Shown here piece after piece: positions 1-17,974 of a stretch of 17,974 nt of DNA. The notes below the pieces were generated by a model. The model did not search any database, was not told where the DNA came from, and saw only the letters and a program-made list of their open reading frames with translations. Location: NCBI GenBank assembly GCA_030625925.1, contig DAOUPY010000004.1, positions 1-17,974 on the forward strand. The letters are read 5' to 3'. The stretch comes from Fusobacteriaceae bacterium (lineage in GTDB: Bacteria > Fusobacteriota > Fusobacteriia > Fusobacteriales > Fusobacteriaceae). The position numbers and the translations under genes are program-made. Position 1 is the stretch's first letter. Every line of letters begins with the position of its first letter.

Positions 1-4
1 GATA

Positions 5-250: not shown

Positions 251-265
251 GAGAACATATTAGAT

Positions 266-302: not shown

Positions 303-316
303 CTAAAAATATTTAT

Positions 317-2233: not shown

Positions 2234-2264
2234 AATATGCCTCCTTTTTTTAATAATAATTATG

Positions 2265-2292: not shown

Positions 2293-2310
2293 ACGAAGCT
2301 ATTGTTAAAA

Positions 2311-2668
2311 TTAAACTGATAATTCTAAAGTTATTCTTAAATAAAATTGGTTGAACTCAATGTTTAAAGTTGTTATATTTTTCAACAGATCAGGAAATTC
2401 AAAATTTATTTTGCTGATCAAAGAATGAATTTTTAAGATAGCTTTTTTCTGTTGGGGTGGAATTGAAAATTATCTCTTTTTAATTGCAGATATTGTTTGG
2501 CTAAACCAGCCACATAGTCTCCTAAGGATTCATAAAAATCTGCCAGCCCTAGATAATGTCTAACCTCTAAAACTGATTTATTGGAATCGCTGTGTCAGAC
2601 ATTCGAAACATCCCGTAAAGGAAGATACTTAAACCACTGACAGTATTAAATAATATCTCTAATGTCAT
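2311..2668 (-). pseudogene. Remnant of a Na+/phosphate symporter-like gene (NptA/PhoU-type)
   Basis: The ATG at 2668-2666 overlaps the HNH gene stop (ATGA) and opens a 33-codon frame reading MTLEILFNTVSGLSIFLYGM, then stops at 2567. That start matches the N-terminus of the Na/Pi-cotransporter family (GLxxFLxGM). A second frame, from about 2605, reads HYLGLADFYESLGDYVAGLA and resembles a helical PhoU-like tail. Adding one T in the T4 run near 2465 would extend it through SIPPQQKKAILKI to a stop at 2311. An intact symporter has several hundred residues. The sequence therefore suggests a large internal deletion plus a later frameshift. The N-terminal identity is fairly clear. The identity of the tail is tentative. 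Confidence 0.6.
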
Positions 2669-3417: not shown

Positions 3418-4063
3418 TTTTTCTCAGCCACCTACGGTAAGACTTAGGATCTTCAATATATTTTTCTATATATTCCCAATATTCCTTAGAATGGTTGGGG
3501 TGTTTTAGGTGTCCTAGTTCATGTACCACTAAATATTCAATGACGTTTAGGGGCATTTTTATAAGGTTGAGATTGAAAGTAATAGTCCCGCTGGAATAAC
3601 AGATTCCCCAGGCAGATTTTAATGGTTTAATCTTTATTTTCTTAGGATAAAGTTCCATAAGTTTAGTATATTTTTCAAGGTATGTCTCTAAAATCCTTTT
3701 TATTTTTTGATGATACCAATGATTCAAGACCGAATTAAAATCTTTAGAAGTATTGAAAATTATATTTTCTTCCTCTATCTTTATGGGGATCTTAGATTTT
3801 TCTATTTTCCAAAGATAGAGTTTACCCAGGTAATAAATTCCTGAATTATCATCTACAGCTGAATATTTTTCCAGTTTTTCTTCTATCCAGGCATATTTAT
3901 CCTCTAGCAATTTTAATCCGTAGGAATAGGAAATCCTCATGGGAATATTCAAAATGATCTCCATAGAAGGTCTAACCTGGAGGGAGATATTTTTTTTCTT
4001 TTTTTTGATTATATAGAGCTCTCTTTCTTTATTTCCGATAGTTATCTTATATTTTTTTCTCAT
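3398..4063 (-). CDS. YgjP-like (DUF45) zinc metallopeptidase
   Basis: A 221-residue soluble protein of the YgjP/WLM-like metallopeptidase family. The signature is VVHELGHLKHPNHS: H181-E182-x2-H185 with a third metal ligand at H191. It is followed by the typical C-terminal tryptophan/arginine region (EYW...YRRWL). Upstream, LKSAWGICYSSGTITFNLNL (residues 148-167) matches the conserved strand before the active-site helix. Length fits the family (about 220-240). Its start overlaps the methyltransferase stop by 4 nt (ATGA at 4060-4063) and its end overlaps the HNH gene by 20 nt, so the three are almost certainly one transcript. Family members occur both as housekeeping proteins and beside restriction systems. 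The substrate is unknown. Confidence 0.85.
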   Translation of the reverse strand: MRKKYKITIGNKERELYIIKKKKKNISLQVRPSMEIILNIPMRISYSYGLKLLEDKYAWIEEKLEKYSAVDDNSGIYYLGKLYLWKIEKSKIPIKIEEENIIFNTSKDFNSVLNHWYHQKIKRILETYLEKYTKLMELYPKKIKIKPLKSAWGICYSSGTITFNLNLIKMPLNVIEYLVVHELGHLKHPNHSKEYWEYIEKYIEDPKSYRRWLRKNGYKYI

Positions 4064-4647
4064 TTCTTTCCTATAAGCAAAAATAAAGGATATTTTTTCT
4101 CATTTTTTTCTATAATAAAAATATTTTCAACTATCTTTACCTCTTTAAATCCTGCATCCTTAAAAATTTCCTCTAAAAAATCATTTGAGAATCCTAAGAA
4201 GTAGATTCCATCTAATGAACCATGAAATGAACCATCTTCTTTCATTAGATCTGCAATGGCTATAACTCCATTAGGGTTTAAAGAATCATATAATTTTTTT
4301 GCTAATTTAGTTATGTCTTCGATGTGGTGCATAACCATGGAACTCATAATCAAGTCAAAGGTCGAAGTGATTTCAAATATTCCTGTAAGTTCTGTAGTTA
4401 AGTTTTTATAATCTTTGCCTTTTTCTTTTAAAATGTCTAACATATTAGGAGAAAGATCTATACCATGAACTGCTCCGACTTTCTCTATTAATGGAAAAAT
4501 TAGCAGTCCAGTACCACATCCAAAGTCCAAAATGTTCATATTTTCATCTAATTTTATATTGTTTTTTATCGATCTGGCGATGGCATTGCTGCGTTCTATT
4601 TTTGACTCTGTATCCCAATCTTTTGCACGCTCATTGAAGTTACTCAT
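4060..4647 (-). CDS. Class I SAM-dependent methyltransferase
   Basis: A 195-residue small-molecule-type methyltransferase. The SAM site is NILDFGCGTGLL (motif I), followed by the acidic HGIDLS (motif II), DLIMSSMVMHHIED (motif III/IV) and LNPNGVIAIADL (post-motif). No DNA-methyltransferase catalytic motif (N/DPPY, PCQ) is present, so the substrate is probably a metabolite, cofactor or tRNA/protein side chain. The start at 4647 is chosen because AGGAGG sits 8 nt upstream (AGGAGGATATAATATG). A longer in-frame reading to 4755 begins at a TTG that is itself part of a GGAGG and reads through a GC-rich palindrome, so it is rejected. It is the first gene of the methyltransferase/peptidase/HNH operon. 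Confidence 0.88.
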   Translation of the reverse strand: MSNFNERAKDWDTESKIERSNAIARSIKNNIKLDENMNILDFGCGTGLLIFPLIEKVGAVHGIDLSPNMLDILKEKGKDYKNLTTELTGIFEITSTFDLIMSSMVMHHIEDITKLAKKLYDSLNPNGVIAIADLMKEDGSFHGSLDGIYFLGFSNDFLEEIFKDAGFKEVKIVENIFIIEKNEKKYPLFLLIGKK

Positions 4648-4662
4648 ATTATATCCTCCTAA

Positions 4663-4732
4663 TTGAACTTTCGTAATGGTGCACGCATTAAAAACCATAG
4701 AGTTTGCCCGCCTCCGGCGGGCAAACAGCCAT
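4663..4732 (-). repeat. GC-rich REP-like palindromic element in the operon leader
   Basis: A perfect 10-bp GC-rich stem, TTTGCCCGCC (4703-4712) with GGCGGGCAAA (4716-4725), has a 3-nt loop. Beside it lies the imperfect dyad TAATG...CATTA around GTGCAC (4674-4690). The GC content is far above that of the neighbourhood, which suggests an inserted short repeat. No T-run follows on the minus strand, so it is not a normal terminator. A 14-codon frame (4688-4732) runs through the hairpin, but its nearest GGAGG is 16 nt away, so I doubt that it is translated. Confidence 0.5.
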
Positions 4733-4874
4733 AATTTTTCTTTAAAATCCTCCAAACACTTTATTTTAAATATAATTTTAAAGAAAATAAGAATTACACC
4801 TTAATATTATTGTGGACTTTATAAGCGAGATGCATCAGCTCTTAATTATTTTTTCTAATATAATTATACAATAA

Positions 4875-4910
4875 AAAAGCCATAAACAAATGATTTTGTT
4901 TATGGCTTTT
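4875..4910 (-). terminator. Intrinsic terminator of the AGCS symporter gene
   Basis: A perfect 16-bp stem (4875-4890 with 4895-4910) has a 4-nt loop and is followed on the minus strand by a T-run. It starts 9 nt after the symporter stop. The remaining stretch to 4732 is AT-rich. On the minus strand it holds TATAAT at 4863-4868, a possible -10 for the methyltransferase operon, without a convincing -35. Confidence 0.9.
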
Positions 4911-4918
4911 GATTTATA

Positions 4919-6445
4919 TTATGAAACTTCTAATTCTGCCTCTGTTGGTTGTGCACTTCTACCTTTTATTCTTATATCATCCCAAAGTTCAAAATCACCT
5001 TTAATTCCAATTTCATTAGGATTGAAATCCCAGTTATCTTGGGTTCCGTTTTTCATTCTAGCTTTATAATCTTTTAAACAGATTATAGCTGGTTTAAACA
5101 TAATTAAGATACCTACTATATTAACCCATGCCATCATTCCTACACCAATATCACCAAGTGTCCAAGCTAGACCACCAGACATAATTGTACCTAGGAATAC
5201 AAATCCTAAAAACAGTATACTTAATATTTTTCTGATTTTCTTACCTGAAGCTTCGTCTCCGAATAGGTAGACTGAAGCTGTGTCCCCATTCCAGAAATAA
5301 GCTAGGATTGTTGTAAATGCAAAGAACATGATAGCTATAGCTACAATATAAGCTCCATAACCAATACCAGCATCCAATGCTGCAGTTGTATTAAGAGGAC
5401 CAATAGTAGAGACTGTCATCTCAGCAGAAGATCCAAATCCTGAGTAGATCTCCTTTCCAGTCGGAGCGAAAACTTTATATGCACCAGTGATGATGATCAT
5501 CAATGCAGTTGCTGTACACACGAATACAGAATCAATGTAGATAGAGAAAGCTTGTATTAATCCCTGTTTAGCAGGATGTGAAGTATCAGCGGCAGCAGCA
5601 GATGCAGGACCAGTACCTTGCCCAGCTTCATTAGAATAAATTCCTCTTTTAACTCCCCACATAACAGCACTACCTACGATACCAGCAAAGGCTTCATGCT
5701 GCCCAAATGCAGATTTAACCATTAATACTAATGATGGAATAATACCTTCAACATTTAAAGCTAATACTATAAGAGCCACAATGATATAAGCTACAGCCAT
5801 AAATGGAACTACTACACCGGCAAATTTAGCGATCCTCTTAGCACCACCAAATATAATTATTCCTAACAGTGTAACTATTACTAATCCAGTTGCCCATGTA
5901 GGGATACCAGTAGCTGTCTGCATAGATCCTGCAATTACATTAGCTTGCACAGAAGGCATAAAGAATGTCATTCCGGCTACAGTTACAACGGCAAATAAGT
6001 TACCATACCAAGCTTTACCACCTAATAAACCTTTTTTAAAGTAATAAGCTGGTCCTCCTCTGTATCCACCTTCAATTTTTTCCTTATATAGTTGTCCCAA
6101 TGTAGATTCAACATATGATGAAGCTGCACCTAGAAGTGAGATAACCCATAACCAAAAGATAGATCCTGGTCCTCCTAAAGCAATGGCTGTGGCAACTCCT
6201 GCAATGTTTCCTGTTCCTACTCTTCCAGAAACTGACATACACATTGCCTCAAATCCACTTATTGAATCTTTAGATCTTTCTCCTGGTTTAACATCTTTTC
6301 CCATTAATAATCTTATCATTTCTTTCATCATTGTAAATTGTGCTCCTCCAATCTTTAGAGTGAAGAATAGTCCTGCTCCTAGACAAAGATAGACAAGCAG
6401 CGGTGACCAAATAATACCGTTTAACTGATTAATAAAACTTTCCAT
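4919..6445 (-). CDS. Alanine/glycine:cation symporter (AGCS family)
   Basis: A 508-residue sodium- or proton-coupled alanine/glycine importer of the inner membrane. Family hallmarks are clear: the N-terminal SGFEAMCMSVSGRVGTGNIAGVA region, GGPGSIFWLWV, then EGGYRGGPAYYFKKGLLG, SNEAGQGTGPASAAAADTSHPAKQG and the late FWNGDTASVYLFG segment. About ten or more hydrophobic helices are seen, and the length is normal for AlsT/DagA-like proteins. The start at 6445 follows GGAGG with 7 nt spacing. A 28-residue upstream in-frame extension lacks a ribosome binding site and is not conserved family sequence. The gene is monocistronic, with its own terminator downstream. Confidence 0.93.
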   Translation of the reverse strand: MESFINQLNGIIWSPLLVYLCLGAGLFFTLKIGGAQFTMMKEMIRLLMGKDVKPGERSKDSISGFEAMCMSVSGRVGTGNIAGVATAIALGGPGSIFWLWVISLLGAASSYVESTLGQLYKEKIEGGYRGGPAYYFKKGLLGGKAWYGNLFAVVTVAGMTFFMPSVQANVIAGSMQTATGIPTWATGLVIVTLLGIIIFGGAKRIAKFAGVVVPFMAVAYIIVALIVLALNVEGIIPSLVLMVKSAFGQHEAFAGIVGSAVMWGVKRGIYSNEAGQGTGPASAAAADTSHPAKQGLIQAFSIYIDSVFVCTATALMIIITGAYKVFAPTGKEIYSGFGSSAEMTVSTIGPLNTTAALDAGIGYGAYIVAIAIMFFAFTTILAYFWNGDTASVYLFGDEASGKKIRKILSILFLGFVFLGTIMSGGLAWTLGDIGVGMMAWVNIVGILIMFKPAIICLKDYKARMKNGTQDNWDFNPNEIGIKGDFELWDDIRIKGRSAQPTEAELEVS

Positions 6446-6533
6446 AAAATACCTCCGTTTAAATACAATATAAAATAATTGAAATTCGATCTGAATAATT
6501 GGAACAATAGTCTTTATCATTGGTAACAATTAA

Positions 6534-6562
6534 AGGATAGCACCCTATAAATGAGAAGTCAA
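6534..6562 (-). promoter_or_regulatory. Candidate sigma-70 promoter of the AGCS gene
   Basis: Minus-strand TTGACT (6557-6562) and TATCCT (6534-6539) are separated by 17 nt, leaving a leader of about 80 nt before the start codon. The match is reasonable. I see no riboswitch or T-box motif in the leader. Confidence 0.4.
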
Positions 6563-6710
6563 ACCTAAAAAGAAACACTTTATTTGTTTTTAGGACAATA
6601 TTGCTTTGCTTGAAGTTATTGGATAGTGAATTTTTTATCTTACATATTGAGACAGAAATGTTATTTAGGTAACTTTTTTGTTGCAAAAATAGAGGTTGAT
6701 TTTCAATAAA

Positions 6711-6750
6711 AGAAAAGAAATCCCTACTTATTAGTAGGAATTTCTTTTCT
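6711..6750. terminator. Long hairpin, probable intrinsic terminator
   Basis: An 18-bp stem (6711-6728 with 6733-6750) has one C/A mismatch (G-U on the minus-strand RNA) and a TATT loop. Read on the minus strand it ends in TTTCTTTTCTTTT. It lies between the acyltransferase gene and the AGCS promoter, so it probably stops read-through into the symporter gene. The rest of 6751-6909 is very AT-rich and includes an (AT)8 run at 6797-6812. I see no gene there. Confidence 0.65.
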
Positions 6751-6909
6751 TAATGTTTATATATCATTTTATGCTCATATATTATTTTCACATAGGATAT
6801 ATATATATATATCTTAATGTTTAATTTTTTATGCATATAAATCAAAATAATAGATACTTTTAACATGAGTTCAGAACTTTATTTAACTTATAAAGTGAAA
6901 TAAATAACA

Positions 6910-6943
6910 ACATAATTAAAATATTCTTATTTTTTAATTATGT
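6910..6943 (-). terminator. AT-rich hairpin after the acyl ligase fusion gene
   Basis: A 12-bp stem (6910-6921 with 6932-6943) lies 16 nt downstream of the stop at 6959. It is purely AT-rich apart from one G-C pair and is followed by a moderate T-rich stretch, so it is a weak but plausible terminator. Confidence 0.45.
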
Positions 6944-6958
6944 CAAAAAAATTAAAGC

Positions 6959-9427
6959 TTAATTCTTTTCTAGGAGTTTTTTAACTAAACGTTCACTTTC
7001 CCTCACAATTTCTTCGATCTCTAAATTTTTAGGGTATAGAGGTGGAAGGAATGTTAGGTCAACATTTGTAGACTTAGGGAATTTACTTCCAATAGGCATG
7101 GATTTATAAGCTCCATCGATGACAAATGGTTGAACTGGTATATTTAGAGTTTTACTTAAGATAGCAAAAGCTTTTTTAAATTTTGCCATCTCTCCATCCC
7201 TGCTTCTGGCTCCTTCTGGGAATATAACTAGGTTTTTTCCTTGACGAAGTACCATAGCAGCAGTTTGTAAAGTTTCACTTAGATTATTATCCACATCTAA
7301 AAGGATAATATTTCCATGATCAGCACCCCATTTTTTCAATGAATTGTTAAAATGCTTAGAGACAGCTAAGTAATAAGTGTTCTCTAAAATTTTCTTGTTT
7401 AGAGCGGTATTAAGTATAAAACCATCTAGAAAACTTTGGTGATTTCCTATGAATATTGTTGGCTGATTAGTTATATTTTCTAAACCACTTTTATTTATTT
7501 TAATGTATCCCTTAAAAAAAGGAGTTAAGATACATTTTGCAAATTTTAAAGTCGCACTAGATTTAGGGATAAAAACATCGATGTCTTTATTTAATATTTC
7601 AGACCAATCATTTTCTTTTTCTGTGATCTCTACTCCCTTGTCGTGTAAAAACTTAGACAGGTCATATAGAGTCGGATACTGAGAAAGTTCCTCTTCCATA
7701 ATAGTAATATTAAATGTATTTCCGACAAATGATAATAATTCTACAAAATCCAAAGAATCCATTCCTAGATCTAATTCAAAATGATCTTTTGGTGTAGGAG
7801 ACGTTCCTTTTAATTTTTCTATAAATTTTTTCAAGACTAGATATTCTTTTATAGTTGGTTCTTGAACTTTTTCTACGACTCTCTTTTTCTCCTCTAACAG
7901 ATCCTTCAACTTAAATCTTCTGAGTTTTCCCAACCTTGTCTTAGGCAGTTCCTCCTGTACGATTTTGATATCTAATATTTTTCTATAATTAGGAGCTTCA
8001 ATATTATATGGGTCTATAACATTCCATTTTATAGCTTCACTTATGTTTTTTATTCCCTCTTTTTCAATCACTGCAAAATTAGGATATACAATCACAACTA
8101 GATGATTTTTATGTTCAGTAACAGCTAATTCAGAAATTAAATTAGTTTTTTTCATAATATTATCTTCGATATCTTGCGGGTTGATATTTTTTCCATTTGG
8201 AAGAACGATCATTTCTTTTTTTCTACCTATAATATAGAGGTAATCATCCTTGATCTCTCCCAAATCTCCAGTATGAAACCAACCATCTTTATCTATGACT
8301 TCTGCTGTAGCCTCTGGTTTATTATAATATCCCTTCATGATGTTTTTTCCACGAGCAATAATCTCGCCATCATCGGCTATTTTCAATTCAACTTGTGGTA
8401 GTGCACCACCACAAGAGCCAGGTCTGATATCGTCATATCTAGTGAAGGTAAGGATTGGAGAGGTTTCAGTAAGACCATACCCCTCTAATAGTCTAAATCC
8501 AAGAGTACCAAAATCTTTGACTATTTGCGGGTCTATCTTAGCTCCTCCAGATACCATAACATGCATCTCTCCACCAAATCCATCTTGTACTTTTTTGAAT
8601 ATTTTCCTACCCAGTTCTATATTATTTGTTTTAGAAACTATCTTAAATAGTGTTCTAGGGATAAAATTTGCATTTATTTTTTCCATTATTCCCTTATGAA
8701 ACATCTCCCATAGTCTAGGAACTCCTACAAATAATGTGATCTTATATTCCTGCAACGCACCTTTAATAGCGGCAGAAGAGAGGTCATCTAAGATAATAAC
8801 TGTACATCCAACCTTTAGAGGAAGGATTAGATTTCCCATAATTGGGAGTACATGATGCATTGGTAAAAGGGCTAAAACACGATCTTTTTCCCTATACAAA
8901 CCAACTTCAGCGATATTCTCAATATTGGAAAGAAGATTTTCCATAGTAAGCATAACTCCCTTGGGATCTCCAGTAGTACCAGAAGTATAAAGGAGTAAGA
9001 CAGTTTGGTCTCCTACTGGAGCCTCCATATAATCTTTTTTACCTATGTATTTTTCCGGGACTTTCACTTCATCTAAGTTGATGATTGGGATCTCCAGTCC
9101 AGATCTTTTTAGACCTTCTACAGCAACCTCTAAGTTTTTATTACTGGTATACAGATACTTTGGCTTTGCATCGGTTAAAAAATATGCAATTTCAGAGGCA
9201 CTGCTTCCTGCATCGACATTTATAGAAATACCTTTTTTTTCCCAAATAGAAAATACAGCATATGCGATCTCAGGTCGATTTTCTAAGAATACTAACACCT
9301 TGTCTTCTGGATTTTCTAATATTAACATATCTGAATAATATAAAATTCTTCTTACTAATTCTTTGTACGTAATTTCAGTTCCCTTGTATATTAGGGCTGG
9401 TTTGTCTCTTGAAATAATAAATTTCAT
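6959..9427 (-). CDS. Acyl-activating ligase - acyl carrier - 1-acyl-glycerophosphate acyltransferase fusion
   Basis: An 822-residue three-domain enzyme. Residues 1-515 form an AMP-binding adenylating domain: LLYTSGTTGDPKG (146-157), GYGLTETSP (316-324), GWFHTGD (382-388), GRKKEMI (401-407) and a C-terminal KTRLGK with the probable catalytic lysine near 501. Residues about 525-600 form an acyl carrier domain with the phosphopantetheine serine at 558 (GMDSL). Residues about 645-815 form a PlsC-type acyltransferase with NHQSFLD (H663-x4-D668) and FPEGARSR (736-743). The likely role is to activate a free fatty acid with ATP, load it on the built-in carrier and transfer it to a lysophospholipid or glycerolipid. 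The order is the reverse of E. coli Aas (acyltransferase first) and a carrier is added. The start at 9427 follows AGGAGG, so a 22-residue upstream extension is rejected. Confidence 0.88.
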   Translation of the reverse strand: MKFIISRDKPALIYKGTEITYKELVRRILYYSDMLILENPEDKVLVFLENRPEIAYAVFSIWEKKGISINVDAGSSASEIAYFLTDAKPKYLYTSNKNLEVAVEGLKRSGLEIPIINLDEVKVPEKYIGKKDYMEAPVGDQTVLLLYTSGTTGDPKGVMLTMENLLSNIENIAEVGLYREKDRVLALLPMHHVLPIMGNLILPLKVGCTVIILDDLSSAAIKGALQEYKITLFVGVPRLWEMFHKGIMEKINANFIPRTLFKIVSKTNNIELGRKIFKKVQDGFGGEMHVMVSGGAKIDPQIVKDFGTLGFRLLEGYGLTETSPILTFTRYDDIRPGSCGGALPQVELKIADDGEIIARGKNIMKGYYNKPEATAEVIDKDGWFHTGDLGEIKDDYLYIIGRKKEMIVLPNGKNINPQDIEDNIMKKTNLISELAVTEHKNHLVVIVYPNFAVIEKEGIKNISEAIKWNVIDPYNIEAPNYRKILDIKIVQEELPKTRLGKLRRFKLKDLLEEKKRVVEKVQEPTIKEYLVLKKFIEKLKGTSPTPKDHFELDLGMDSLDFVELLSFVGNTFNITIMEEELSQYPTLYDLSKFLHDKGVEITEKENDWSEILNKDIDVFIPKSSATLKFAKCILTPFFKGYIKINKSGLENITNQPTIFIGNHQSFLDGFILNTALNKKILENTYYLAVSKHFNNSLKKWGADHGNIILLDVDNNLSETLQTAAMVLRQGKNLVIFPEGARSRDGEMAKFKKAFAILSKTLNIPVQPFVIDGAYKSMPIGSKFPKSTNVDLTFLPPLYPKNLEIEEIVRESERLVKKLLEKN

Positions 9428-9464
9428 GATATTCCTCCTAAACTTTTGATAAACATTTTTACTT

Positions 9465-9493
9465 ATTATACTATATTTATTGGTGTAAAACAA
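9465..9493 (-). promoter_or_regulatory. Sigma-70 promoter of the acyl ligase fusion gene
   Basis: Minus-strand TTGTTT (9488-9493) and a perfect TATAAT (9465-9470) are separated by 17 nt, about 37 nt before the start codon. Confidence 0.6.
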
Positions 9494-9523
9494 ATTGACT
9501 CAAATAAAAATAAGAATAAAGGA

Positions 9524-9546
9524 ATTTTCTCACCTGCTGAGAAAAT
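9524..9546. promoter_or_regulatory. Perfect inverted repeat between divergent genes (candidate operator)
   Basis: ATTTTCTCA (9524-9532) and TGAGAAAAT (9538-9546) form a perfect 9-bp inverted repeat with a 5-nt spacer. It sits just upstream of the ligase promoter and upstream of lon. No T-run follows and no gene ends here, which favours a protein binding site over a terminator. It is not CIRCE (TTAGCACTC-N9-GAGTGCTAA). Confidence 0.5.
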
Positions 9547-9653
9547 AAAATAGATTAAATATAAAAATTTTTAAATAAATTTACTAGGAAATAATGAGGA
9601 AAGAAGGTATAAATTATTATTATAATAAAATGTTTCATAAAGGGGGGCTGACC

Positions 9654-11435
9654 ATGTATGCACAAGAAAATAATAGTCAATTAATTAACGTAGAGCACAT
9701 CTTGCCAGAAAATTTAACAATTTTACCAATGCTAACAAGACCAATATTTCCAAATATTATGATCCCTATAACTTTTTCAGGGGAAGTTTTTTTAAAAACT
9801 ATCAAGATGGTAGAGGAGACAGAAAATAAATTATTAGGTTTAGTTTTTGTAAAGGAATTAAATCAATTTGATATTTTTAAGTCAGAGCTATATGAAGTTG
9901 GAACAGTAGTAAAAGTTCACAAAATAACACCTCTTTCAGCTAATACAATTCAGATAATAGTCCAAGGGTTGAATAGGTTCGAGCTATTAAAAGTCATGAA
10001 GAAGGAACCTAATATCGTTTGGAATGTAAAATATGATAAAGGGGAAGAGGGTCCTCCGAACGATGAAATACGAGCCTATATGTTAGCAATCATGTCATCT
10101 TTAAAAGAAATTTTTAAGGTTAATCCAATCTTGCAGGAAGAATTGAAGTTACTCATGACCCAGGTAAATTATGAAAAACCAGGTGTACTGATGGATCTGA
10201 TTACTTCTATGTTAAAAACTGAGAATAAAAACCTGCAAGAAGTTTTGGAGGAATGGGAACTAGCTAAGAGGAGTAGATTGATATTAACTATGTTGAAAAA
10301 AGAATTAGAGATATCGCATCTCCAAGAAAAGCTTCAAAAACAAATTGAAGAAAAAGTAAGTAAACAACAAAAAGAATATTTTTTAAGGGAACAATTAAAG
10401 TTAATAAAAAAAGAATTAGGCCTGGAAAAAGATGATAAAGAGACTGAAGTTGAAAAAATATTACAAATATTGGAAGGGAAAACTCTAAGTGAGGAAGCGT
10501 TAAAAACCGTAGAAGAACAAATAGAAAAATTAAAATTGTTAGATAGTCATTCACCGGAACACAATGTGGTAAGATCCTATCTTTTAGCCATAGCGGAGCT
10601 GCCATGGGGAGTTTATTCAGACGATAGTTTGGATATAAATAAATCGAGAAAAAAACTGGATGAAGACCACTATGGATTACAGGATGTTAAAAGTAATATA
10701 TTAGAATTTATTAGTACCATTATGAAAACTGGGACTGTAAGCGGGGCTATCCTTTGTTTAGTAGGACCTCCAGGAGTAGGGAAAACTTCCATTGGAAAAT
10801 CAATCGCAAATGCATTAAATCGTGAATTTTTTAGGTTTTCTGTAGGTGGAATGAAGGATGAAGCGGAGATAAAAGGTCATAGAAGAACTTATATCGGTGC
10901 CATGCCAGGGAAGATATTACAGGCTATAAAAAAAGTTGGAACGGCAAATCCAATAATAATGTTAGATGAGATAGATAAAATTGGGAATAGTTATCAAGGG
11001 GATCCAGCATCGGCTCTCTTAGAGGTATTAGATCCAGAACAGAATGTTGAATTTTTAGATCATTACCTGGATGTAAGATTTGATCTGTCTAAAATTTTAT
11101 TTATAACCACAGCTAACCAGTTAGATACCATCCCTAGACCACTCTTAGATAGAATGGAAATAATTCAATTGCCGGGATATATATTAGAAGAAAAAGAAGA
11201 GATAGCAAAGAAATATTTGATTCCTCATCAAATGGAAGAGCATGGGTTAACGAAAAAAGAGATATCAATATCGGCTCCGACTCTAAGGGAAATCATTGAC
11301 AAATACGCTAGAGAAGCAGGAGTAAGAGGATTAGAAAAGAATATTAAAAAGATTATGAGAAAAGCTACTCTGAAAATTGCCGAGGGAGAACATAAAAAAA
11401 TAAGTGTAAATAAAAAAATATGGAAGAGTTTTTAG
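9654..11435 (+). CDS. lon: Lon protease, N-terminal and AAA+ part (frame broken before the protease domain)
   Basis: A 593-residue frame covering the Lon substrate-binding domain (starting LPMLTRPIFPNIMIP), a coiled-coil linker and the AAA+ motor. Walker A is GPPGVGKT (371-378) and Walker B is IIMLDEIDK (434-442), followed by the pore/sensor region with TTAN and the GVRGLEKNIKKIMRK helix. It stops with IWKSF instead of continuing into the peptidase domain. The missing domain is intact in the -1 frame from 11420. Lon is an ATP-dependent cytoplasmic protease for damaged and regulatory proteins. The start at 9654 is chosen from AAGGGGGG 5 nt upstream. An ATG at 9594 would add 20 non-conserved residues. 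Without a frame correction the product would be an unfolding ATPase with no peptidase. Confidence 0.9.
   Translation: MYAQENNSQLINVEHILPENLTILPMLTRPIFPNIMIPITFSGEVFLKTIKMVEETENKLLGLVFVKELNQFDIFKSELYEVGTVVKVHKITPLSANTIQIIVQGLNRFELLKVMKKEPNIVWNVKYDKGEEGPPNDEIRAYMLAIMSSLKEIFKVNPILQEELKLLMTQVNYEKPGVLMDLITSMLKTENKNLQEVLEEWELAKRSRLILTMLKKELEISHLQEKLQKQIEEKVSKQQKEYFLREQLKLIKKELGLEKDDKETEVEKILQILEGKTLSEEALKTVEEQIEKLKLLDSHSPEHNVVRSYLLAIAELPWGVYSDDSLDINKSRKKLDEDHYGLQDVKSNILEFISTIMKTGTVSGAILCLVGPPGVGKTSIGKSIANALNREFFRFSVGGMKDEAEIKGHRRTYIGAMPGKILQAIKKVGTANPIIMLDEIDKIGNSYQGDPASALLEVLDPEQNVEFLDHYLDVRFDLSKILFITTANQLDTIPRPLLDRMEIIQLPGYILEEKEEIAKKYLIPHQMEEHGLTKKEISISAPTLREIIDKYAREAGVRGLEKNIKKIMRKATLKIAEGEHKKISVNKKIWKSF
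11412..11418 (+). other. A7 slippage/frameshift site within lon
   Basis: Seven A residues lie exactly where the frame breaks. With eight, the protein reads VNKKNMEEFLGKP and gives one 789-residue Lon (E. coli Lon has 784). The downstream frame is reached by a -1 ribosomal shift or by one extra A in the mRNA. A second A7 tract lies 11 nt upstream (11394-11400), but changing its length would lead straight to a stop. Confidence 0.75.
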
Positions 11436-12022
11436 GTAAGCCAATCTTTACCACTGAAGAACTATATAATAAAAACGTACCTGGGGTTACATTGGGATTA
11501 GCCTGGACATCTATGGGAGGAGTTACTCTATATATAGAGGCACGTGTTATAGGTCATCAAGGTGGATTTAAGCAAACAGGTCAATTAGGAGATGTAATGA
11601 AAGAGTCTTCGATTATTGCTTATTCATATGTTAAATCTTTGATGTGTAAAGAAGACTGTGATAAAGATAAAAAAGACTTCTTTGATAAACACAGTATTCA
11701 TCTTCATGTACCGGAAGGTGCTACTCCAAAAGATGGACCTTCTGCTGGAGTAACTATGGCACTTGCCCTATATTCACTGGCTAAAAATCAATCAATTAAA
11801 AACAATATAGCCATGACTGGAGAGATTACCCTCACTGGAAAAGTGTTACCTATTGGGGGAATACGAGAAAAAACAATAGCTGCAAGAAGGGTAGGAATAG
11901 ATACATTATTAATTCCAAAAGATAATAAAACTGATTTTGACAGACTGCCAGATTATATAAAAGAAGGAATCACAGTACACTATGCTGATTATTTTGAAGA
12001 TATATTAAAGGTAGTATTTTAA
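11420..12022 (+). CDS. lon: Lon protease, C-terminal peptidase domain (separate frame)
   Basis: A 200-residue frame holding the complete Lon S16 peptidase domain. The catalytic serine is at residue 108 in ATPKDGPSAG and the catalytic lysine at 151 in GGIREKTIAA, giving an intact Ser-Lys dyad. It begins EEFLGKPIFTTEELYNKNVPGVTLGLAW, which normally follows the AAA+ C-domain without a break. Its ATG overlaps the end of the upstream frame by 16 nt and has no clear ribosome binding site, so independent translation would depend on reinitiation. Alternatives are a true pseudogene mutation, a one-base sequencing error at the A tract, or slippage that makes both full-length and split forms. Confidence 0.9.
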   Translation: MEEFLGKPIFTTEELYNKNVPGVTLGLAWTSMGGVTLYIEARVIGHQGGFKQTGQLGDVMKESSIIAYSYVKSLMCKEDCDKDKKDFFDKHSIHLHVPEGATPKDGPSAGVTMALALYSLAKNQSIKNNIAMTGEITLTGKVLPIGGIREKTIAARRVGIDTLLIPKDNKTDFDRLPDYIKEGITVHYADYFEDILKVVF

Positions 12023-12035
12023 ATTAACTATGAAT

Positions 12036-12084
12036 TATAGAACGTATGACTGGATAGGTTTTATCTATACTTATGCGTTCTATA
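12036..12084 (+). terminator. Hairpin after lon (weak terminator)
   Basis: A 12-bp stem (12036-12047 with 12073-12084, one G-U pair) has a 25-nt loop and is followed only by TTTAAA. It lies 14 nt after the lon stop and may allow read-through into the selenoprotein gene. Confidence 0.45.
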
Positions 12085-12106
12085 TTTAAAAACAAAATTA
12101 AAGTCC

Positions 12107-12112
12107 TATAAT
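12107..12112 (+). promoter_or_regulatory. Candidate -10 box upstream of the selenoprotein gene
   Basis: A perfect TATAAT lies 57 nt before GGAGG. The only -35 at acceptable spacing is a poor TTTAAA (12085-12090, 16 nt spacer). Independent transcription is possible but not proven. Confidence 0.3.
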
Positions 12113-12180
12113 GTATGAATATAAATAATTCCAAACAAAAATATAAAAATCTTAAATCTATGATCTCTGGAGGTTGAATA

Positions 12181-12477
12181 ATGATTTTAATTCATGACAA
12201 ACTGAAAAAATATATGGCTAAAAAAAATCTTAATATTATAAAAATCTCTGTTAAAGTTACTAAAGGCGGCTGATGTGCTGGACAGCAGACACTTCAGGTT
12301 GAAGCAATAGAAAAGATGGAAAATGAAAATGGGTTTACAAAATATGATGTAGATGGTCTGAATTTATATATCTATGATGGTCTGGAATTGACAGATGAAG
12401 TGGAAATTAAATACTTATATTCAATACCTATAATAGGAACTGTACTCAGTGCCAGAGGGTTAAGGATTAAAGATTAA
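12181..12477 (+). CDS. Small HesB/IscA-like selenoprotein (Sec-Cys motif), UGA at codon 31
   Basis: ATG at 12181 follows GGAGG with 7 nt spacing. The frame reads KISVKVTKGG, then TGA (12271-12273), then CAGQQTLQVEA and 57 more codons to TAA at 12475-12477, giving 98 residues. Reading the TGA as selenocysteine gives a GG-Sec-Cys motif between a beta-strand and a polar segment. The later DGLNLYIYDGLEL resembles the DG...fid segment of HesB/IscA-like folds, where known Sec/Cys-Cys redox or metal-binding members occur. A SECIS-like hairpin lies just downstream of the UGA, and a terminator follows the stop. Family assignment is by pattern only. The protein lacks the C-terminal CGC of true IscA, so a redox or metal/selenium role is inferred, not shown. 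If UGA meant stop, a 30-residue peptide would be left, and the open 67 codons after it would be unexplained. Confidence 0.85.
12292..12304 (+). promoter_or_regulatory. Bacterial SECIS-like element
   Basis: CTTCA (12292-12296) pairs perfectly with TGAAG (12300-12304) around a GGT loop that opens 23 nt after the UGA. Bacterial SECIS elements are short stem-loops in the coding region just after the UGA, with a G among the first apical loop bases, which fits. An alternative longer fold from 12270 to 12297 (CTGA...TCAG) competes with it and contains the UGA. Confidence 0.65.
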
Positions 12478-12510
12478 AAAATAAGGAAGCTTTTGGGTTT
12501 CCTTATTTTT
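12477..12510 (+). terminator. Intrinsic terminator of the selenoprotein gene
   Basis: AAAAATAAGGAA (12477-12488) pairs with TTCCTTATTTTT (12499-12510) around a 10-nt loop. It starts at the last base of the stop codon and ends in a T-run. Confidence 0.85.
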
Positions 12511-12539
12511 TAATTACATTGTATAATTAAATGCAAAAA

Positions 12540-12559
12540 AAAAGGTTATAAAACCTTTT
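12540..12559 (-). terminator. Terminator of the half-permease operon
   Basis: An 8-bp stem (12540-12547 with 12552-12559) has a 4-nt loop. On the minus strand it is followed by a long T-run (A-run at 12534-12541 on plus). It lies about 95 nt after the stop at 12655. Confidence 0.7.
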
Positions 12560-12654
12560 AATAAAGACTTATAATTTATAAAAATATAGGGTAGATTTAA
12601 TTCCATAAAATAGAAAGATTAAGGCAGGAATCTATTGGTATTTAAATTAAACTA

Positions 12655-13185
12655 TTAACTTTTTATTGGTAATTTATAACCATTTTTTTCTAATATTCTG
12701 CCCATAGCAATACCGCTTAAGATAACAAGTGGGATAGAGGCTATAATACGAATAAGACTAAATTTCCAACCAAGAAATGTTGATTCAAATAGAATCATAG
12801 GAATACGACCAATTCCGACAGCACCCAAAAATGTAAGGATAACTGTTAAACGAGCACCCTTTTGATAAAGAGAATAAGCTATAGGAAATGCAGGCAGAAG
12901 ACCACCAGCCATGGGAGCTGCCAAAATAAATACCCAGATAAAACTTTTAATACCGCCATCCTTACCAAGATGTTTTACTATTGTCTCTTTTTTCATCCAA
13001 ACATCAAAAAATCCAATCAAAATAAATATTGCCGGTAAAATTTTTATCATTTGAAATGAAAAATTTCCAAAGTTTTTACCGATTTCCATGCCTGGAATAA
13101 ATTTAATTAAAAATGAGATTCCAATAAAAATAATAAATGTTATTAAAAAAATTATTTTAATGGAAAATTGTTTCGTATTTTTCAT
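12655..13185 (-). CDS. Half-size membrane permease, second subunit (ArsP/DUF318-like)
   Basis: A 176-residue integral membrane protein with about four or five helices. The central segment APMAGGLLPAFPIAYSLYQK, followed by GARLTVILTFLGAVGIGRIP, resembles the conserved core of COG0701-type permeases (ArsP/YraQ family), which are normally about twice this length. Its start overlaps the stop of the upstream gene by 4 nt (ATGA, 13182-13185), so the two are co-translated. The upstream protein has a matching core (MPGPIVYPLCKMLVEKGVS). The pair therefore looks like two homologous halves that assemble into one transporter (inference). The substrate is unknown, and no metalloid or metal regulator gene is adjacent. 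Confidence 0.7.
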   Translation of the reverse strand: MKNTKQFSIKIIFLITFIIFIGISFLIKFIPGMEIGKNFGNFSFQMIKILPAIFILIGFFDVWMKKETIVKHLGKDGGIKSFIWVFILAAPMAGGLLPAFPIAYSLYQKGARLTVILTFLGAVGIGRIPMILFESTFLGWKFSLIRIIASIPLVILSGIAMGRILEKNGYKLPIKS

Positions 13186-13664
13186 ATTAACCTCCCTTCT
13201 ACAAACGAAAAGATTAATGCAATAATTAATGCCATAACTAAACTAATAAGATTTCTTAAAATAGCAAATTTCTTCCCAAAATACGCCTTTTCTATAGGAA
13301 AAGTAAGTACTCCTACCATCATAAGAGATGAAGAAAACGCTGCAATAACGCTGTACGATACACCTTTTTCTACAAGCATTTTACAAAGAGGATAAACGAT
13401 AGGTCCTGGCATAACAGTAATTGCACCAATTATTGAAGCAATTGCAACACCAAAATAAGAATCTGAGCCACCAAGATAATTTACAATCAGACTATGTGGT
13501 ATAAAATACAATATAATAGAAACCGATATTAGAATAGAAATAAATGGGAGCGTAATCTTCCATAACTTTTTCATGCCAACGATAAAAGCCTTTTTAGTTT
13601 TTTGCTGATCAATGAAAAAAGAAATTATTGTAACAATTACTGTTAAAAAATATATAAAATTCAT
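13182..13664 (-). CDS. Half-size membrane permease, first subunit (ArsP/DUF318-like)
   Basis: A 160-residue membrane protein with four or five helices. The core MPGPIVYPLCKMLVEKGVSY followed by SVIAAFSSSLMMVG is equivalent to the core of its operon partner. It starts with a short hydrophobic segment, then a cytoplasmic KKAFIVGMKKLWK stretch, as seen at the domain start of such permeases. The ATG at 13664 is preceded by AGGAGA at a rather long spacing (11 nt). It is the first gene of the two-gene operon, under the promoter at 13761-13789. The 5' leader contains an inverted repeat that could control it. Confidence 0.7.
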   Translation of the reverse strand: MNFIYFLTVIVTIISFFIDQQKTKKAFIVGMKKLWKITLPFISILISVSIILYFIPHSLIVNYLGGSDSYFGVAIASIIGAITVMPGPIVYPLCKMLVEKGVSYSVIAAFSSSLMMVGVLTFPIEKAYFGKKFAILRNLISLVMALIIALIFSFVEGRLI

Positions 13665-13695
13665 AAATATTAATTCTCCTTATATTTCAAAATAA

Positions 13696-13725
13696 TTGTT
13701 GCCAAAATATAAGATTAAGCAACAA
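13696..13725. promoter_or_regulatory. Inverted repeat in the half-permease leader
   Basis: TTGTTGC (13696-13702) and GCAACAA (13719-13725) form a perfect 7-bp inverted repeat with a 16-nt spacer, downstream of the promoter and upstream of the start codon. It could be a repressor operator or an RNA hairpin. Confidence 0.4.
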
Positions 13726-13760
13726 CTTTATTAAATTAATATATATCTTAATTTGTTCAT

Positions 13761-13789
13761 ATGATACATGATTATTTAATTAAAATCAA
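13761..13789 (-). promoter_or_regulatory. Sigma-70 promoter of the half-permease operon
   Basis: Minus-strand TTGATT (13784-13789) and TATCAT (13761-13766) are separated by 17 nt. The stretch from 13790 to 14010 is AT-rich and shows no gene. I find no convincing promoter for the plus-strand gene that follows. Confidence 0.55.
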
Positions 13790-14025
13790 GTAATATTGAA
13801 TTCAATTTAATCACTGATAAATGTCTGTAGTGTTATATAACGAAATGATAAAAAATAAAAGTCGATGGATTAAGTCAAAATGCCCTTTTAGAATATAAAT
13901 TTATAATTAGAAGAATATTATTTTTTATTGTTATCTAGGAAATTATAAATTTAATTGTAAAAGAATATATATAAATAAGTGAAACAGTAGTTTTATAATC
14001 CCAATTCACTATACAAGGAGAAATT

Positions 14026-14847
14026 ATGGAAAAAAGATTAGAAAAAAAAGATATAGTCTTAAGAAAACGGGACCTTGAAGGATATAAGGGAGATTACGGT
14101 CATGTAATAGTCATAGGAGGGAGTCCTGGGTTTACAGGAGCACCTGTGATTACAGCTAATTCAGCAGTAAGATCAGGAGCAGGTCTTGTAACTCTTTGTA
14201 TAGAGGATAAGATTGAAAATATGATAATACCAAATCTTTTAGAAGCTATGAGCTGTACATTATCAAATGAGACAAAGTTTAAAAAATTACTAAAAAAAGC
14301 CACTGTAGTGGCTTTAGGACCAGGGATGGGAATGGAGAAAACCCTTAGTATTTTAAATTATACTCTGGCTAATTCCACTTGTCCTTTGGTAATAGATGCA
14401 GATGGAATAAATGTTCTGCATAAAAAGATGGAATTATTAAAAGGGAGAAAAGTAGTTTTAACACCTCATCTAGGGGAGTTTTCAAGACTCACTGGGTTGG
14501 ATATAGAAAAAATAAAAAAAGATAGATTAAACATAGCTAGAGAATTTGCCCAGATTCATAATGTGGTTTTACTTTTAAAAGGATATAGGACTCTTATTAC
14601 CGACGGGAAGGAAGTATACATAAATACAAGTGGAAACTCTGCCATGGCAAATGGAGGGATGGGGGATTCTCTTACAGGGATAATTGCCTCTTTAATAGCA
14701 CAAGGATATGACGTATTAGAAGCTGCCTGTATAGGAGCCTATATCCATGGTTATATAGGGGATGAACTATCCAGGGAAAGATTTTGTGTTACAGCAAGGG
14801 ATATAATAGAATATCTGCCTATATATATGAAAAAATTTCAAGAATAA
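14026..14847 (+). CDS. nnrD: ADP-dependent (S)-NAD(P)H-hydrate dehydratase
   Basis: A 273-residue metabolite-repair enzyme. It dehydrates damaged NADHX/NADPHX back to NAD(P)H using ADP, in the cytoplasm. The ribokinase-like fold is evident: HVIVIGGSPGFTGAP (residues 26-40), ALGPGMG (96-102), VIDADGIN (122-129), LTPHLGEFSRL (145-155), LLLKGYRTLI (182-191) and NGGMGDSLTGIIASLIAQG (209-227) with the catalytic Asp at 214. The usual Thr in GTGD is Met here. It covers only the dehydratase half. Many bacteria fuse it to the NnrE epimerase, which is absent from this window. GGAG lies 6 nt before the ATG. No obvious terminator follows the stop, and the next gene has its own promoter. Confidence 0.92.
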   Translation: MEKRLEKKDIVLRKRDLEGYKGDYGHVIVIGGSPGFTGAPVITANSAVRSGAGLVTLCIEDKIENMIIPNLLEAMSCTLSNETKFKKLLKKATVVALGPGMGMEKTLSILNYTLANSTCPLVIDADGINVLHKKMELLKGRKVVLTPHLGEFSRLTGLDIEKIKKDRLNIAREFAQIHNVVLLLKGYRTLITDGKEVYINTSGNSAMANGGMGDSLTGIIASLIAQGYDVLEAACIGAYIHGYIGDELSRERFCVTARDIIEYLPIYMKKFQE

Positions 14848-14968
14848 AAAAATTTTATTTTATATATTGGTATCATCTCATAAAACGGCAATAGAATATT
14901 TTGAAATAGGAGCTGTTAACTTAATAAAAATTGTATTCTTTCGTCATTTTTTATATAAATATGATAAT

Positions 14969-15001
14969 TATACTTGTAATTTAATTTAAATTACAAGTAT
15001 A
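14969..15001. promoter_or_regulatory. 33-bp palindrome overlapping the diguanylate cyclase promoter
   Basis: TATACTTGTAATTTAA (14969-14984) and TTAAATTACAAGTATA (14986-15001) are perfect 16-bp arms around one T. A promoter fits inside and at the edge: TTGTAA (14974-14979), an 18-nt spacer and TATACT (14998-15003). An alternative -10 TATAAT lies at 15009-15014. The symmetry over the promoter core suggests a dimeric repressor site. Confidence 0.55.
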
Positions 15002-15038
15002 CTGTAGGTATAATTAAATTAACTATAGGGGAGAAGAT

Positions 15039-16553
15039 ATGCTTAGGATAAAAAGTTTAACTGTTGTAACTGTTTCAAGTATGCTAGTTTTTGTACTTAT
15101 GTTTTCTTATTTAAAAAAATCAATAGATAGAGATTATAAAAATTTAGAGATTCTTAGATCAAAATCTATATATCATTTGATAGACCATGAATTTCAAGGA
15201 ATGTATAAAGATTTAGAAAAAATTAATACTGACTGGAGTAAGTGGGATGATACTTACGAATTTATAGAAGGAAATGACAAAGTAAGGGAAATATTTATAA
15301 AGAGTAATTTAGATTACGGAATATTATATGGAATATTATCTGATTTAAATTTAAATTTCATTATTTTTCAGGATGACCACGGGCAAATCTTATATCAACA
15401 GGCTTATGATGATTTGGGAGATGATAAAATTCCTAGGGAAAAAATTGACCTGATAACAAAAAAAATATCTGATTATACAGAGGATACAGGGCTGGTAGTT
15501 GTAGATGATAAAGAGGTTTTAGTCTTTTCTAATTTGAAGATAAGCGATAGTAAGAATGTGAAAAAACCAAATGGTAATTTAATAATGGGTTATTTTTTAA
15601 ATGAAAATAGGGTTGCTGCTATAAAAGAAAAATTAGGAATTCAACTTGCTATGGCTGGGATTACTGAAAGATCAGAAGTCCCGTATAATATCAATATAGG
15701 TAAGAATAAAATATATAATAAAATATATATTTCAGCCTCTTCAGGGGAAAGTATTGTTTTTGATAATCAAAGAAATGCTGATATATTGATCCTAGGGAAG
15801 GAAAATATAAAAAAATATGTGATTATGTTATTTGTTAATTTTATAATCTTAATATTTTCAATTTACATTTTTATGGAACATATCATAGTAAGAAGATTGA
15901 GAAAGATGGATCAGTCGGTAAAGGAAATTATAGAATGTCAAGATTTGGGAAAGCGTCTTAAGATTAGAGGTAAAGATGAAATTGGTAATTTAGGGAAAAA
16001 CATAAATAATTTATTAGAAGACATTGAACTTATGAAGGAAAGGTTATATAATCTGGCTGCCTATGACGTGATGACTGGAATTTTAAACAGGCATACGGGG
16101 GTGGAAAAATTAGAAAGAAACTTTAAAAAAGCTCAAAATGAAAATAGAATTTTTACAATAGCTTTTCTAGATATAAATGACTTGAAATATGTAAATGATA
16201 GGTATTCCCATGAAGAGGGAGATGAATTGATTAAAAACATTGTAAAAATAATAGAAAAAAAAGTGAAATCAGATGATGTTTTTTTGAGATTTGGAGGAGA
16301 TGAATTTATCCTGGGGTTTAATAGATTAAATTTAATAGAGACAAAACAGCTATTTAATGAAATTGAAAGAAATATAGAAAAATATAATAATGAATCTAAG
16401 AAAGAATACGCACACAGTATCAGTATAGGAATAGTAGAATGTCGAGAAAATAAAACTTTAGAGGAATATGTCAACATTGCAGATATCAATATGTATGAGA
16501 ATAAAAGAGCTAAAAAAAAGTTTCCTGAAAGAATATATGTTGAAGAAAATTAA
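15039..16553 (+). CDS. Membrane-anchored diguanylate cyclase (CHASE4-like sensor, HAMP, GGDEF)
   Basis: A 504-residue sensor enzyme that makes cyclic di-GMP from two GTP. A membrane helix at about 7-25 and a second at about 259-280 bracket an extracytoplasmic sensor domain. The segment DWSKWDDTYEFI (65-76) is typical of CHASE4. A HAMP linker (about 281-335) leads to the cyclase: YDVMTGILNR (342-351), DINDLKYVNDRYSHEEGD (378-395) and the active-site GGDEF at 419-423. The residues before it read KSDDVFLRF, so the inhibitory RxxD product site is not intact. No EAL or HD-GYP domain is present. The start at 15039 follows AGGGGAG. The gene has its own promoter and a strong terminator. The ligand is unknown. 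Confidence 0.9.
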   Translation: MLRIKSLTVVTVSSMLVFVLMFSYLKKSIDRDYKNLEILRSKSIYHLIDHEFQGMYKDLEKINTDWSKWDDTYEFIEGNDKVREIFIKSNLDYGILYGILSDLNLNFIIFQDDHGQILYQQAYDDLGDDKIPREKIDLITKKISDYTEDTGLVVVDDKEVLVFSNLKISDSKNVKKPNGNLIMGYFLNENRVAAIKEKLGIQLAMAGITERSEVPYNINIGKNKIYNKIYISASSGESIVFDNQRNADILILGKENIKKYVIMLFVNFIILIFSIYIFMEHIIVRRLRKMDQSVKEIIECQDLGKRLKIRGKDEIGNLGKNINNLLEDIELMKERLYNLAAYDVMTGILNRHTGVEKLERNFKKAQNENRIFTIAFLDINDLKYVNDRYSHEEGDELIKNIVKIIEKKVKSDDVFLRFGGDEFILGFNRLNLIETKQLFNEIERNIEKYNNESKKEYAHSISIGIVECRENKTLEEYVNIADINMYENKRAKKKFPERIYVEEN

Positions 16554-16630
16554 AAAGGCAACGTGACGTTTCATCTATACTATTGAAAAAAGAGGTATTT
16601 TCATACATACCTATCAAGCTAAAATAATTC

Positions 16631-16664
16631 AAGGAGTTAATTTATATAATTAGCTCCTTTTTTT
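16631..16664 (+). terminator. Intrinsic terminator of the diguanylate cyclase gene
   Basis: A 12-bp stem (16631-16642 with 16648-16659, one G-U pair), a 5-nt loop and seven T. From 16665 to 16760 the DNA is AT-rich and probably includes the right end of the IS. No terminal repeat can be defined because the other end lies outside the window. Confidence 0.9.
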
Positions 16665-16763
16665 AATTTTGTATGTTAACTTGGGATATTATCAATTAAT
16701 TTTAAGTATTACAAAAAAAACACTTGCAAAAATGTCTAAAAAATATTATTATTTTTATGAGTT

Positions 16764-16798
16764 GGTTCTTAGTAACTTTTTGTTGCTAAGACCTTTTT
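16764..16798 (+). terminator. Plus-strand terminator at the 3' end of the IS transposase gene
   Basis: GGTTCTTAGTAAC (16764-16776) pairs with GTTGCTAAGACC (16782-16793) with one bulge and one G-U, followed by T5 (16794-16798) on the plus strand. It overlaps the last codons of the minus-strand transposase, so it can block transcription entering the element from outside. Confidence 0.6.
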
Positions 16799-17974
16799 CT
16801 TTTTATCTATAATCTTTCTTATTTTACTATTCAAGCGTTCGAACCTTTTGGAACATTTTAATAAATTTAAAAATCCATCTAATATTTGCAAAGAACTCTT
16901 TAAAACCCTGCGAATACTCATTTCTTTTGGAAAACCATCATAAATATTTTTAGTAATTTCAAGTAATAAAATCATTTTAATTAATGTAGCATATAGATGT
17001 GTTTCTATTCTTTCTATTTTTAAATTCTTAATTTTATCTAATTGGAAATCTGATTTAAAAAATTTGAAAAGAAGTTCTATTTGCCATCTTAATCTATATA
17101 TTTCAATAATTTGATTAAGATCAATTTCTTTTACATTTGTAATATAGCCGCTTATTTGTGCAGAATCTCTAGCTAATTTAGATACTGTTTTTCCTCTTTC
17201 TTCTCTTTTTTTTATCTCTTTCAATTTTTCTTGAATAGCACTCTCTTCAAGTTTTGTGACAATAATTCTAAAAGACTGTTTAGGTTCATGACTTCCAACT
17301 AAAAAGTTATACTCTCTTGTTTCGCTTGGCTTTAAATCATTACCTAGTGCTCCAGCATTTGTTACTAGATATTTAGATTTAACTAACATTTTGCCATTTT
17401 TACCATATTTAGGTTTTGGATTTAAAGAAAAAAGTCTGGTTCCTGCCCTCAATCTTGAAATGAAAAAACTATTTTTACTATCAATAATATTAAAATCATC
17501 AAATTTAAAATATCCTAAATCCTTTAAGACTAAAGAATTATCAGATAATTTATCATAGATATGTTTAGAAAAATTTTGTTCATTTTTTCTTCCATTACTA
17601 AATTCAATATTTTCAACAGAATAATTTAAAAGCTCCATAAGAAGGTTAATTTTAAGTGTCGCGGGATTCGTTTGAGTAGTTCCTTTATATACATCTTTTA
17701 ATTTAGGATGTAATTTAATTTCTGTAGAATCCATTAAAAATATTTTATTAAAACCATGACTTTTAAAGGCTTTTAATAGATGTGGTTGTTGCAACTCACA
17801 TAATTTAATGAAAATCCTTTTGAAAAACTCAATAGAAGTTAAATTATATCTCTGATCGAGTGCTTGTGGTGAAACTTCAATATCTTTTCTTATTTCAAGA
17901 TACGAGGTCAGCTCTTCTAAAGTAGATGTACAAATATTGTTCCCGCTAAAACAGTTAAGGTGAAGAAATTCTAA
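16769..17974 (-). mobile_element. IS4-family transposase (N-terminus cut by the window edge)
   Basis: The frame stays open from the window end to TAA at 16769, giving 401 residues with no start in view. The TTG at 17794 is internal. The DDE catalytic core is visible: LMDSTEIKLHP (first Asp), LVLKDLGYF (second Asp) and the IS4 YREK signature YRLRWQIELLFKFFK (Y-x2-R-x3-E-x6-K). The upstream part reads DIEVSPQALDQRYN, the usual IS4 helix-turn-helix-like N-terminal region. No internal stop or frameshift is seen, so it may be active. The gene codes for cut-and-paste transposition of its own element. The left end and terminal repeats are not in the window. Confidence 0.9.

Follow-up and report, generated by a model that had tools for sequence, protein, structure and literature searches.

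A predicted selenoprotein of IscA-like fold encoded downstream of lon in a Fusobacteriaceae bacterium

Does the TGA that interrupts a short reading frame directly downstream of lon in a Fusobacteriaceae bacterium end the frame, or does it encode selenocysteine (Sec)? The frame lies in the 17,974-nucleotide stretch analysed here (the window; GenBank assembly GCA_030625925.1, contig DAOUPY010000004.1, positions 1 to 17,974, forward strand), and a preliminary description made from the letters alone had proposed that it is a hidden selenoprotein gene preceded by GGAGG. Re-reading of the sequence found the frame, its coordinates and the upstream GGAGG to be exact. The gene runs from ATG at 12181 through 29 codons, the TGA as codon 31, a Cys codon and 66 further codons to TAA at 12475-12477; the TGA, followed by Cys as described, is the sole internal stop, and Sec31 and Cys32 are the only chalcogen residues of the protein when Sec and Cys are counted. 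Judged by the comparative tests reported here, the gene encodes a real, mis-annotated selenoprotein, because the UGA is conserved, Sec and Cys exchange at its site, selection continues downstream, a hairpin covaries and the Sec machinery is present; we put the probability that the product is a 98-residue selenoprotein of the IscA/HesB fold at roughly 0.93. The features concerned are the following.

12181..12477, plus strand: predicted gene of a 98-residue selenoprotein (Sec31), with its TAA stop (from the sequence, the same-genus copies and constraint)
12169..12173, plus strand: GGAGG ribosome-binding site, 7 nt 5' of the ATG (from reading the sequence)
12271..12273, plus strand: UGA codon, predicted selenocysteine (residue 31; same codon in the seven same-genus copies, 22 UGA and six Cys among 28 relatives)
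12274..12276, plus strand: Cys32 codon, vicinal partner of Sec31 (from reading the sequence)
12292..12304, plus strand: hairpin CTTCA-GGT-TGAAG resembling a selenocysteine insertion sequence (SECIS), loop 23 nt after the UGA (from covariation over 22 genes)
12474..12513, plus strand: strong hairpin with a T-run that overlaps and follows the stop, a likely transcription terminator (from folding energy)

Conservation of the UGA codon

A set of 61 genomes (the own genome and 60 relatives) was searched with the window protein, which matched in 10. Seven of the eight genomes of the own genus carry the gene, the unmatched one (G004) being 76% complete. Each of these seven copies contains exactly one TGA, always at codon 31, and is preceded by GGAGG 5' of the ATG; the encoded proteins are 65-85% identical to that of the window. 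In pairwise comparison of all seven copies, the ratio of nonsynonymous to synonymous change (pN/pS) came to 0.42 before the TGA (codons 1-30) and 0.41 after it (codons 32-98).

When an alignment was used as the query of 98 Fusobacteriota genomes, 29 matched, and 28 were kept as family members. The match in G058, an open frame of 476 residues that we take to resemble leucyl aminopeptidase, was rejected as false. UGA stands at the site in 22 of the 28 members and Cys in six. The members of the own genus (group A) have the motif [G/S]GUC[A/S]G with seven UGA codons; group B (genus g4) has GSKUCPV with four UGA and one Cys; group C (g14) has GCC, with three Cys; group D (g13 and g8) has mostly FGUAGC, with 11 UGA; and group E (g6) has GCSC, with two Cys. 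Matches to group D in the genome search were weak, with E values of 3.7e-9 to 1.4e-5, but the profile of this group matched an alignment of 10 members (A1) strongly when the two were compared by hhalign (probability 98.2%, E 4.9e-14); a separate alignment, A6, held 8 of the 11 group D genes. The database relatives retrieved were 22 of the 76 proteins of one search and 23 of the 96 of another, for group D, and Ser was seen at the Sec site in one database fragment, P0171. The window protein alone, as a query of wider genome contigs, gave no match, and the alignment as query gave at least three loci among 590 pattern matches; a search of plasmids for the selenoprotein gene found none.

The preliminary description had staked its claim beforehand on conservation downstream of the TGA, and the relatives are indeed conserved on both sides of that codon. 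Its statement that the family exists in Sec and Cys forms agrees with the exchange of the two at one site, and both of the homologue types that it named, CC and UC, are present, the Cys forms having CC or CSC.

Selenocysteine machinery and the hairpin

The own genome has a tRNA-Sec (65.7 bits) together with selA, selB and selD, all three on one contig; selA, selB and the tRNA-Sec gene (selC), the absence of which the preliminary description had listed as evidence against itself, are thus all accounted for, and so is selD. The selD gene (contig 112 of G000) is of the Sec type, with an in-frame UGA of its own in a UxxK motif (GGUTSKI), and is itself a predicted selenoprotein gene. Among the 98 Fusobacteriota genomes, tRNA-Sec exceeded the cut-off in 50 and selA in 52. 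All 22 genomes with a UGA form are among the 50 and have tRNA-Sec at 63-74 bits; selA exceeds its cut-off in 21 of them, the exception (G001) being 76% complete. The Cys-form genomes are divided, three (G070, G012 and G024) having neither selA nor tRNA-Sec over the cut-off and the three of g14 having both. A Fisher test, which ignores kinship, gave 2.6e-8. Among 14 named control genomes, tRNA-Sec exceeded the cut-off in five, selA in one, selB in two and selD in two; given the five, the RNA model alone is not fully specific. The selA genes on contig 8 of G071 and contig 1 of G078 contain internal stops, possibly assembly errors; G078 carries a UGA-form gene.

A SECIS-like hairpin after the UGA had also been proposed, and this claim is borne out by the aligned genes but is unremarkable in the window sequence alone. 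The 48 bases from the UGA onward can be aligned without gaps for all 22 UGA genes, 21 of them distinct (alignment A3). In a stem at columns 21-26/30-35, 92.1% of cells are paired (81.5% in shuffles), 16 cells are changed on both sides (4.7 in shuffles) and covariation is 0.315 (0.102 in shuffles), and none of 500 shuffles reaches any of these values. Both-sided change affects three stem pairs, compared with 1.9 in shuffles (18 of 500 reach three); pair types are no more numerous than in the shuffles (5 and 5.4). Sliding the stem partner by 1-3 columns leaves a covariation of at most 0.065, and the column pair 22-34 is AU in 10, CG in seven and GC in four of the 21 distinct rows. Of the 36 codons for conserved residues in group A, 10 are identical in all seven copies, and four of these are the consecutive codons 38-41, which form the hairpin. 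The possibility of a chance hairpin was rejected on the covariation across the 22 genes.

A 2026 review (PMC13188914) gives a bacterial SECIS model with a loop 16-37 nt after the UGA and a G in the first two loop positions. The hairpin fits this model, the window loop, GGU, lying at 23 nt, with a G first in the triloop in 18 and second in all 22 of the 22 genes. Several observations weigh against its assignment as a SECIS element: the published energy limit is not reached by the window's own 60 nt; the minimum-energy fold of these 60 nt differs from the proposed hairpin (z -0.12); an equal stem arises at the same place in 5.3% of synonymous recodings of the window sequence; and stems are weak or displaced in G063, G072, G073 and G019. 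Scanning the window against Rfam gave no match at gathering level and, at relaxed settings, one below-threshold match to a snoRNA. Among the Cys forms, that of G070 (genome 82% complete) retains a hairpin, AATTCA-AGT-TGAATT, at the same spacing, and we read this gene as a probable recent change from Sec to Cys. By the rule used, no hairpin was found in the Cys forms of G020, G085 and G024; the Cys form of G031 has a 4-pair stem at another place and that of G012 a 7-pair stem with a 9-base loop.

These data also bear on other readings of the codon, two of which could draw on public protein predictions. The first database search gave 26 matches, of which eight are full length, all with W at position 31, and 18 have 53-64 residues and start at a downstream Met; the named matches are 64-residue "hypothetical protein" fragments. 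Each of these predictions is either shortened or given Trp at the site. The short products are what one would expect if the UGA were a true stop, in a pseudogene or between two short genes, the second translated from the Met after the UGA. This is highly improbable, however, given that the UGA is kept in seven of seven same-genus copies with equal constraint on either side, that relatives without it have one continuous Cys frame, and that the hairpin covaries. Decoding of UGA as tryptophan, to which the W residues would point, is hardly credible: relatives without UGA have Cys at the site, three of the 14 window frames end in TGA while 13 of 14 use TGG, and tRNA-Sec and selAB are present. Both readings were rejected on these grounds. 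Equally implausible is that the UGA serves mainly as a selenium-dependent switch, giving a 30-residue peptide without selenium and the full protein only when selenium is plentiful; any Sec codon near a gene start would in principle act in this way, but the Cys forms could not be switched by UGA. On the selenoprotein reading, UGA 31 would be decoded by SelB and tRNA-Sec under the direction of the hairpin 23 nt downstream.

Fold, related families and possible function

The window protein is predicted to have an IscA-like fold, the model resembling IscA/SufA. Sec31 falls on or next to the position of IscA Cys35, the first cluster ligand; the C-terminal CGC of IscA is absent, and only the first of the three ligand positions is filled, by Sec31/Cys32. 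The earlier assignment of the protein as HesB/IscA-like is thus upheld by the predicted structure but not by family scores, which fall short of the cut-offs of PF01521 (13.1 against 26.3 bits) and TIGR00049 (13.9 against 58.8 bits). Comparison by hhalign with three A-type carriers of Escherichia coli gave weak matches, and a search of the PDB with a sequence profile gave 0 matches; alignment A5 combined 14 of the 28 members with three E. coli proteins. The protein resembles the A-type iron-sulphur (Fe-S) carriers IscA, SufA and ErpA in its predicted fold and in the chalcogen residue at the Cys35 position, but differs from them in lacking the C-terminal CGC, in having an adjacent second chalcogen and in its scores below both cut-offs.

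The nearest named family is NF041239, "CC/Se motif family (seleno)protein", predicted in Moorella thermoacetica. No other family is matched by every one of the 10 A1 members, and the NF041239 match to the window protein covers residues 2-77, including the motif, but scores 28.2 bits where the cut-off is 40. Twelve of the 98 Fusobacteriota genomes match NF041239 and none exceeds the cut-off; four of seven members matched in a further scan, and G012 and G024 have matches at second places. From these scores, the proteins appear to be a branch that is related to the NF041239 family but lies below its cut-off. The motif of that family is given as CxxU in PMC13188914; the window protein has U-C. TIGR01911, the HesB-like selenoprotein, is likewise a selenoprotein related to IscA/HesB; its motif is UxGP according to the same review, whereas the genus of the window protein has GUC[A/S]G, and TIGR01911 was not among the family-model matches of the window protein. 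The precomputed tag PF28096 (PF28096.1) is carried by all eight full-length database matches, which have W at the Sec site, by Cys forms and by some group D proteins, indicating that a family entry already exists.

What such a protein does can be argued from the arrangement of its chalcogens. Cys lies at +1 of Sec in 11, at +3 in 10 and at -2 in one of the 22 Sec proteins, and the Cys forms have CC or CSC. Because the spacing of the chalcogen pair changes while the pair itself is kept, a reversible Se-S bond is a better fit than a rigid cluster site, which favours a redox role. Thioredoxin reductase is a known example of an adjacent Cys-Sec redox pair. Sec31-Cys32, placed where IscA has its first cluster ligand and with the C-terminal CGC ligands gone, may act as a redox-active selenolate-thiol that forms a reversible Se-S bond, and Cys-Cys or Cys-x-Cys may take the same role in relatives without Sec; we regard the chances of this as about even.

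The main competing proposal is that the same selenoprotein works as a pared-down A-type carrier: its Sec-Cys pair would bind iron, an Fe-S cluster or some other soft metal, perhaps between the two halves of a dimer, and pass it on. The predicted fold and the location of Sec at the Cys35 position speak for it, as does the canonical A-type carrier model TIGR00049, which matched in none of the 98 Fusobacteriota genomes and in 8 of the 14 control genomes. Yet TIGR00049 could overlook divergent carriers, because it scores this family far below its cut-off, and the family itself occurs in only 28 of the 98 genomes, arguing that it is no general replacement of A-type carriers. The missing CGC and the varying position of the second chalcogen (+1, +2, +3 or -2), unlike a fixed cluster site, also count against a carrier, a role that we consider somewhat less likely than the redox one. 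A search of the own genome (82% complete) for sufB found none, and the control was matched in 14. A narrower version, in which a selenolate-ligated Fe-S or iron carrier with an IscA fold, a vicinal Sec-Cys pair and no C-terminal Cys, in a phylum whose genomes gave no match to canonical A-type carriers, would in the Fusobacterium-like genus serve the neighbouring fused acyl-activating/acyltransferase enzyme, is in our judgement quite unlikely.

Gene neighbourhood and significance of the family

Stretches of 9-14 kb were read around the gene in 11 of 11 group D genomes, in four of the seven group A genomes and the window, in all four UGA forms of group B and in all six Cys forms. The order acyl-enzyme, lon, selenoprotein, nnrD was seen in the four retrieved group A genomes and in the window; additional genes precede nnrD in the window and in G003. 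The acyl-enzyme has AMP-binding, phosphopantetheine and acyltransferase domains. A gene of the same type lies next to the selenoprotein gene in 9 of the 11 group D genomes (nine of nine in g13 and neither in g8), in the same orientation and sometimes on both sides; in groups B, C and E, the stretches read showed no such gene. Group A also shares two further gene clusters, more distant from the selenoprotein gene, with one group D stretch each. We regard the apparent linkage to the acyl-enzyme as a lead. In 7 of the 11 group D stretches (L058, L059, L062, L067, L068, L069 and L072) the selenoprotein gene adjoins a gene of PF01996, F420-0 gamma-glutamyl ligase, an assignment made by scanning the L058 copy alone against Pfam.

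Within the window, lon is present as two overlapping frames (9594-11435 and 11420-12022, spanning 9594-12022) near an A-run; it is a single frame of 789-797 residues in four same-genus relatives, and the split is either a sequencing error or a real break. The terminator that had been placed right after the selenoprotein stop corresponds to a strong hairpin at 12474-12513 (-18.6 kcal/mol, z -5.8), but neither this hairpin nor any other terminator was listed by a strict terminator scan. Two adjacent minus-strand permease genes lie between the selenoprotein gene and nnrD (12655-13664); they belong to ArsP_1, the second scoring just under the Pfam cut-off. A tblastn search found no relative of them in four other same-genus neighbourhoods, and one group D stretch (L058) has a relative about 5.5 kb from the selenoprotein gene. 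A DDE transposase gene occupies the right end of the window (16769-17794).

The 2026 review lists 119 selenoprotein families or subfamilies, NF041239 and TIGR01911 included, and a term search of its text did not find "Fusobacteri" (PMC13188914). HesB-like proteins are listed as a selenoprotein family in passages of PMC1794560 and PMC9312934, and passages of PMC5029168 mention Fusobacteria for another selenium trait. We found no paper on the fusobacterial branch of these selenoproteins among the papers listed in searches of open-access literature (10 of 817 matches in one case), subscription papers being outside the scope of the search. Regarding function, the HesB-like selenoprotein is listed as unknown in PMC2933860; that of Methanococcus maripaludis came to light through mutagenesis and 75Se labelling and has no clear function, and nitrogen fixation persisted in a disruption mutant, according to passages of PMC11097638.

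The proteins described here add to the family a branch that has UGA forms in four Fusobacteriota genera and Cys forms in three, and the UGA members of which are commonly shortened or given Trp in public predictions. Given that the protein is small, that it has no other Cys in the own genus and that Sec and Cys forms occur naturally, the role of HesB/IscA-type selenoproteins should be directly testable in this branch.
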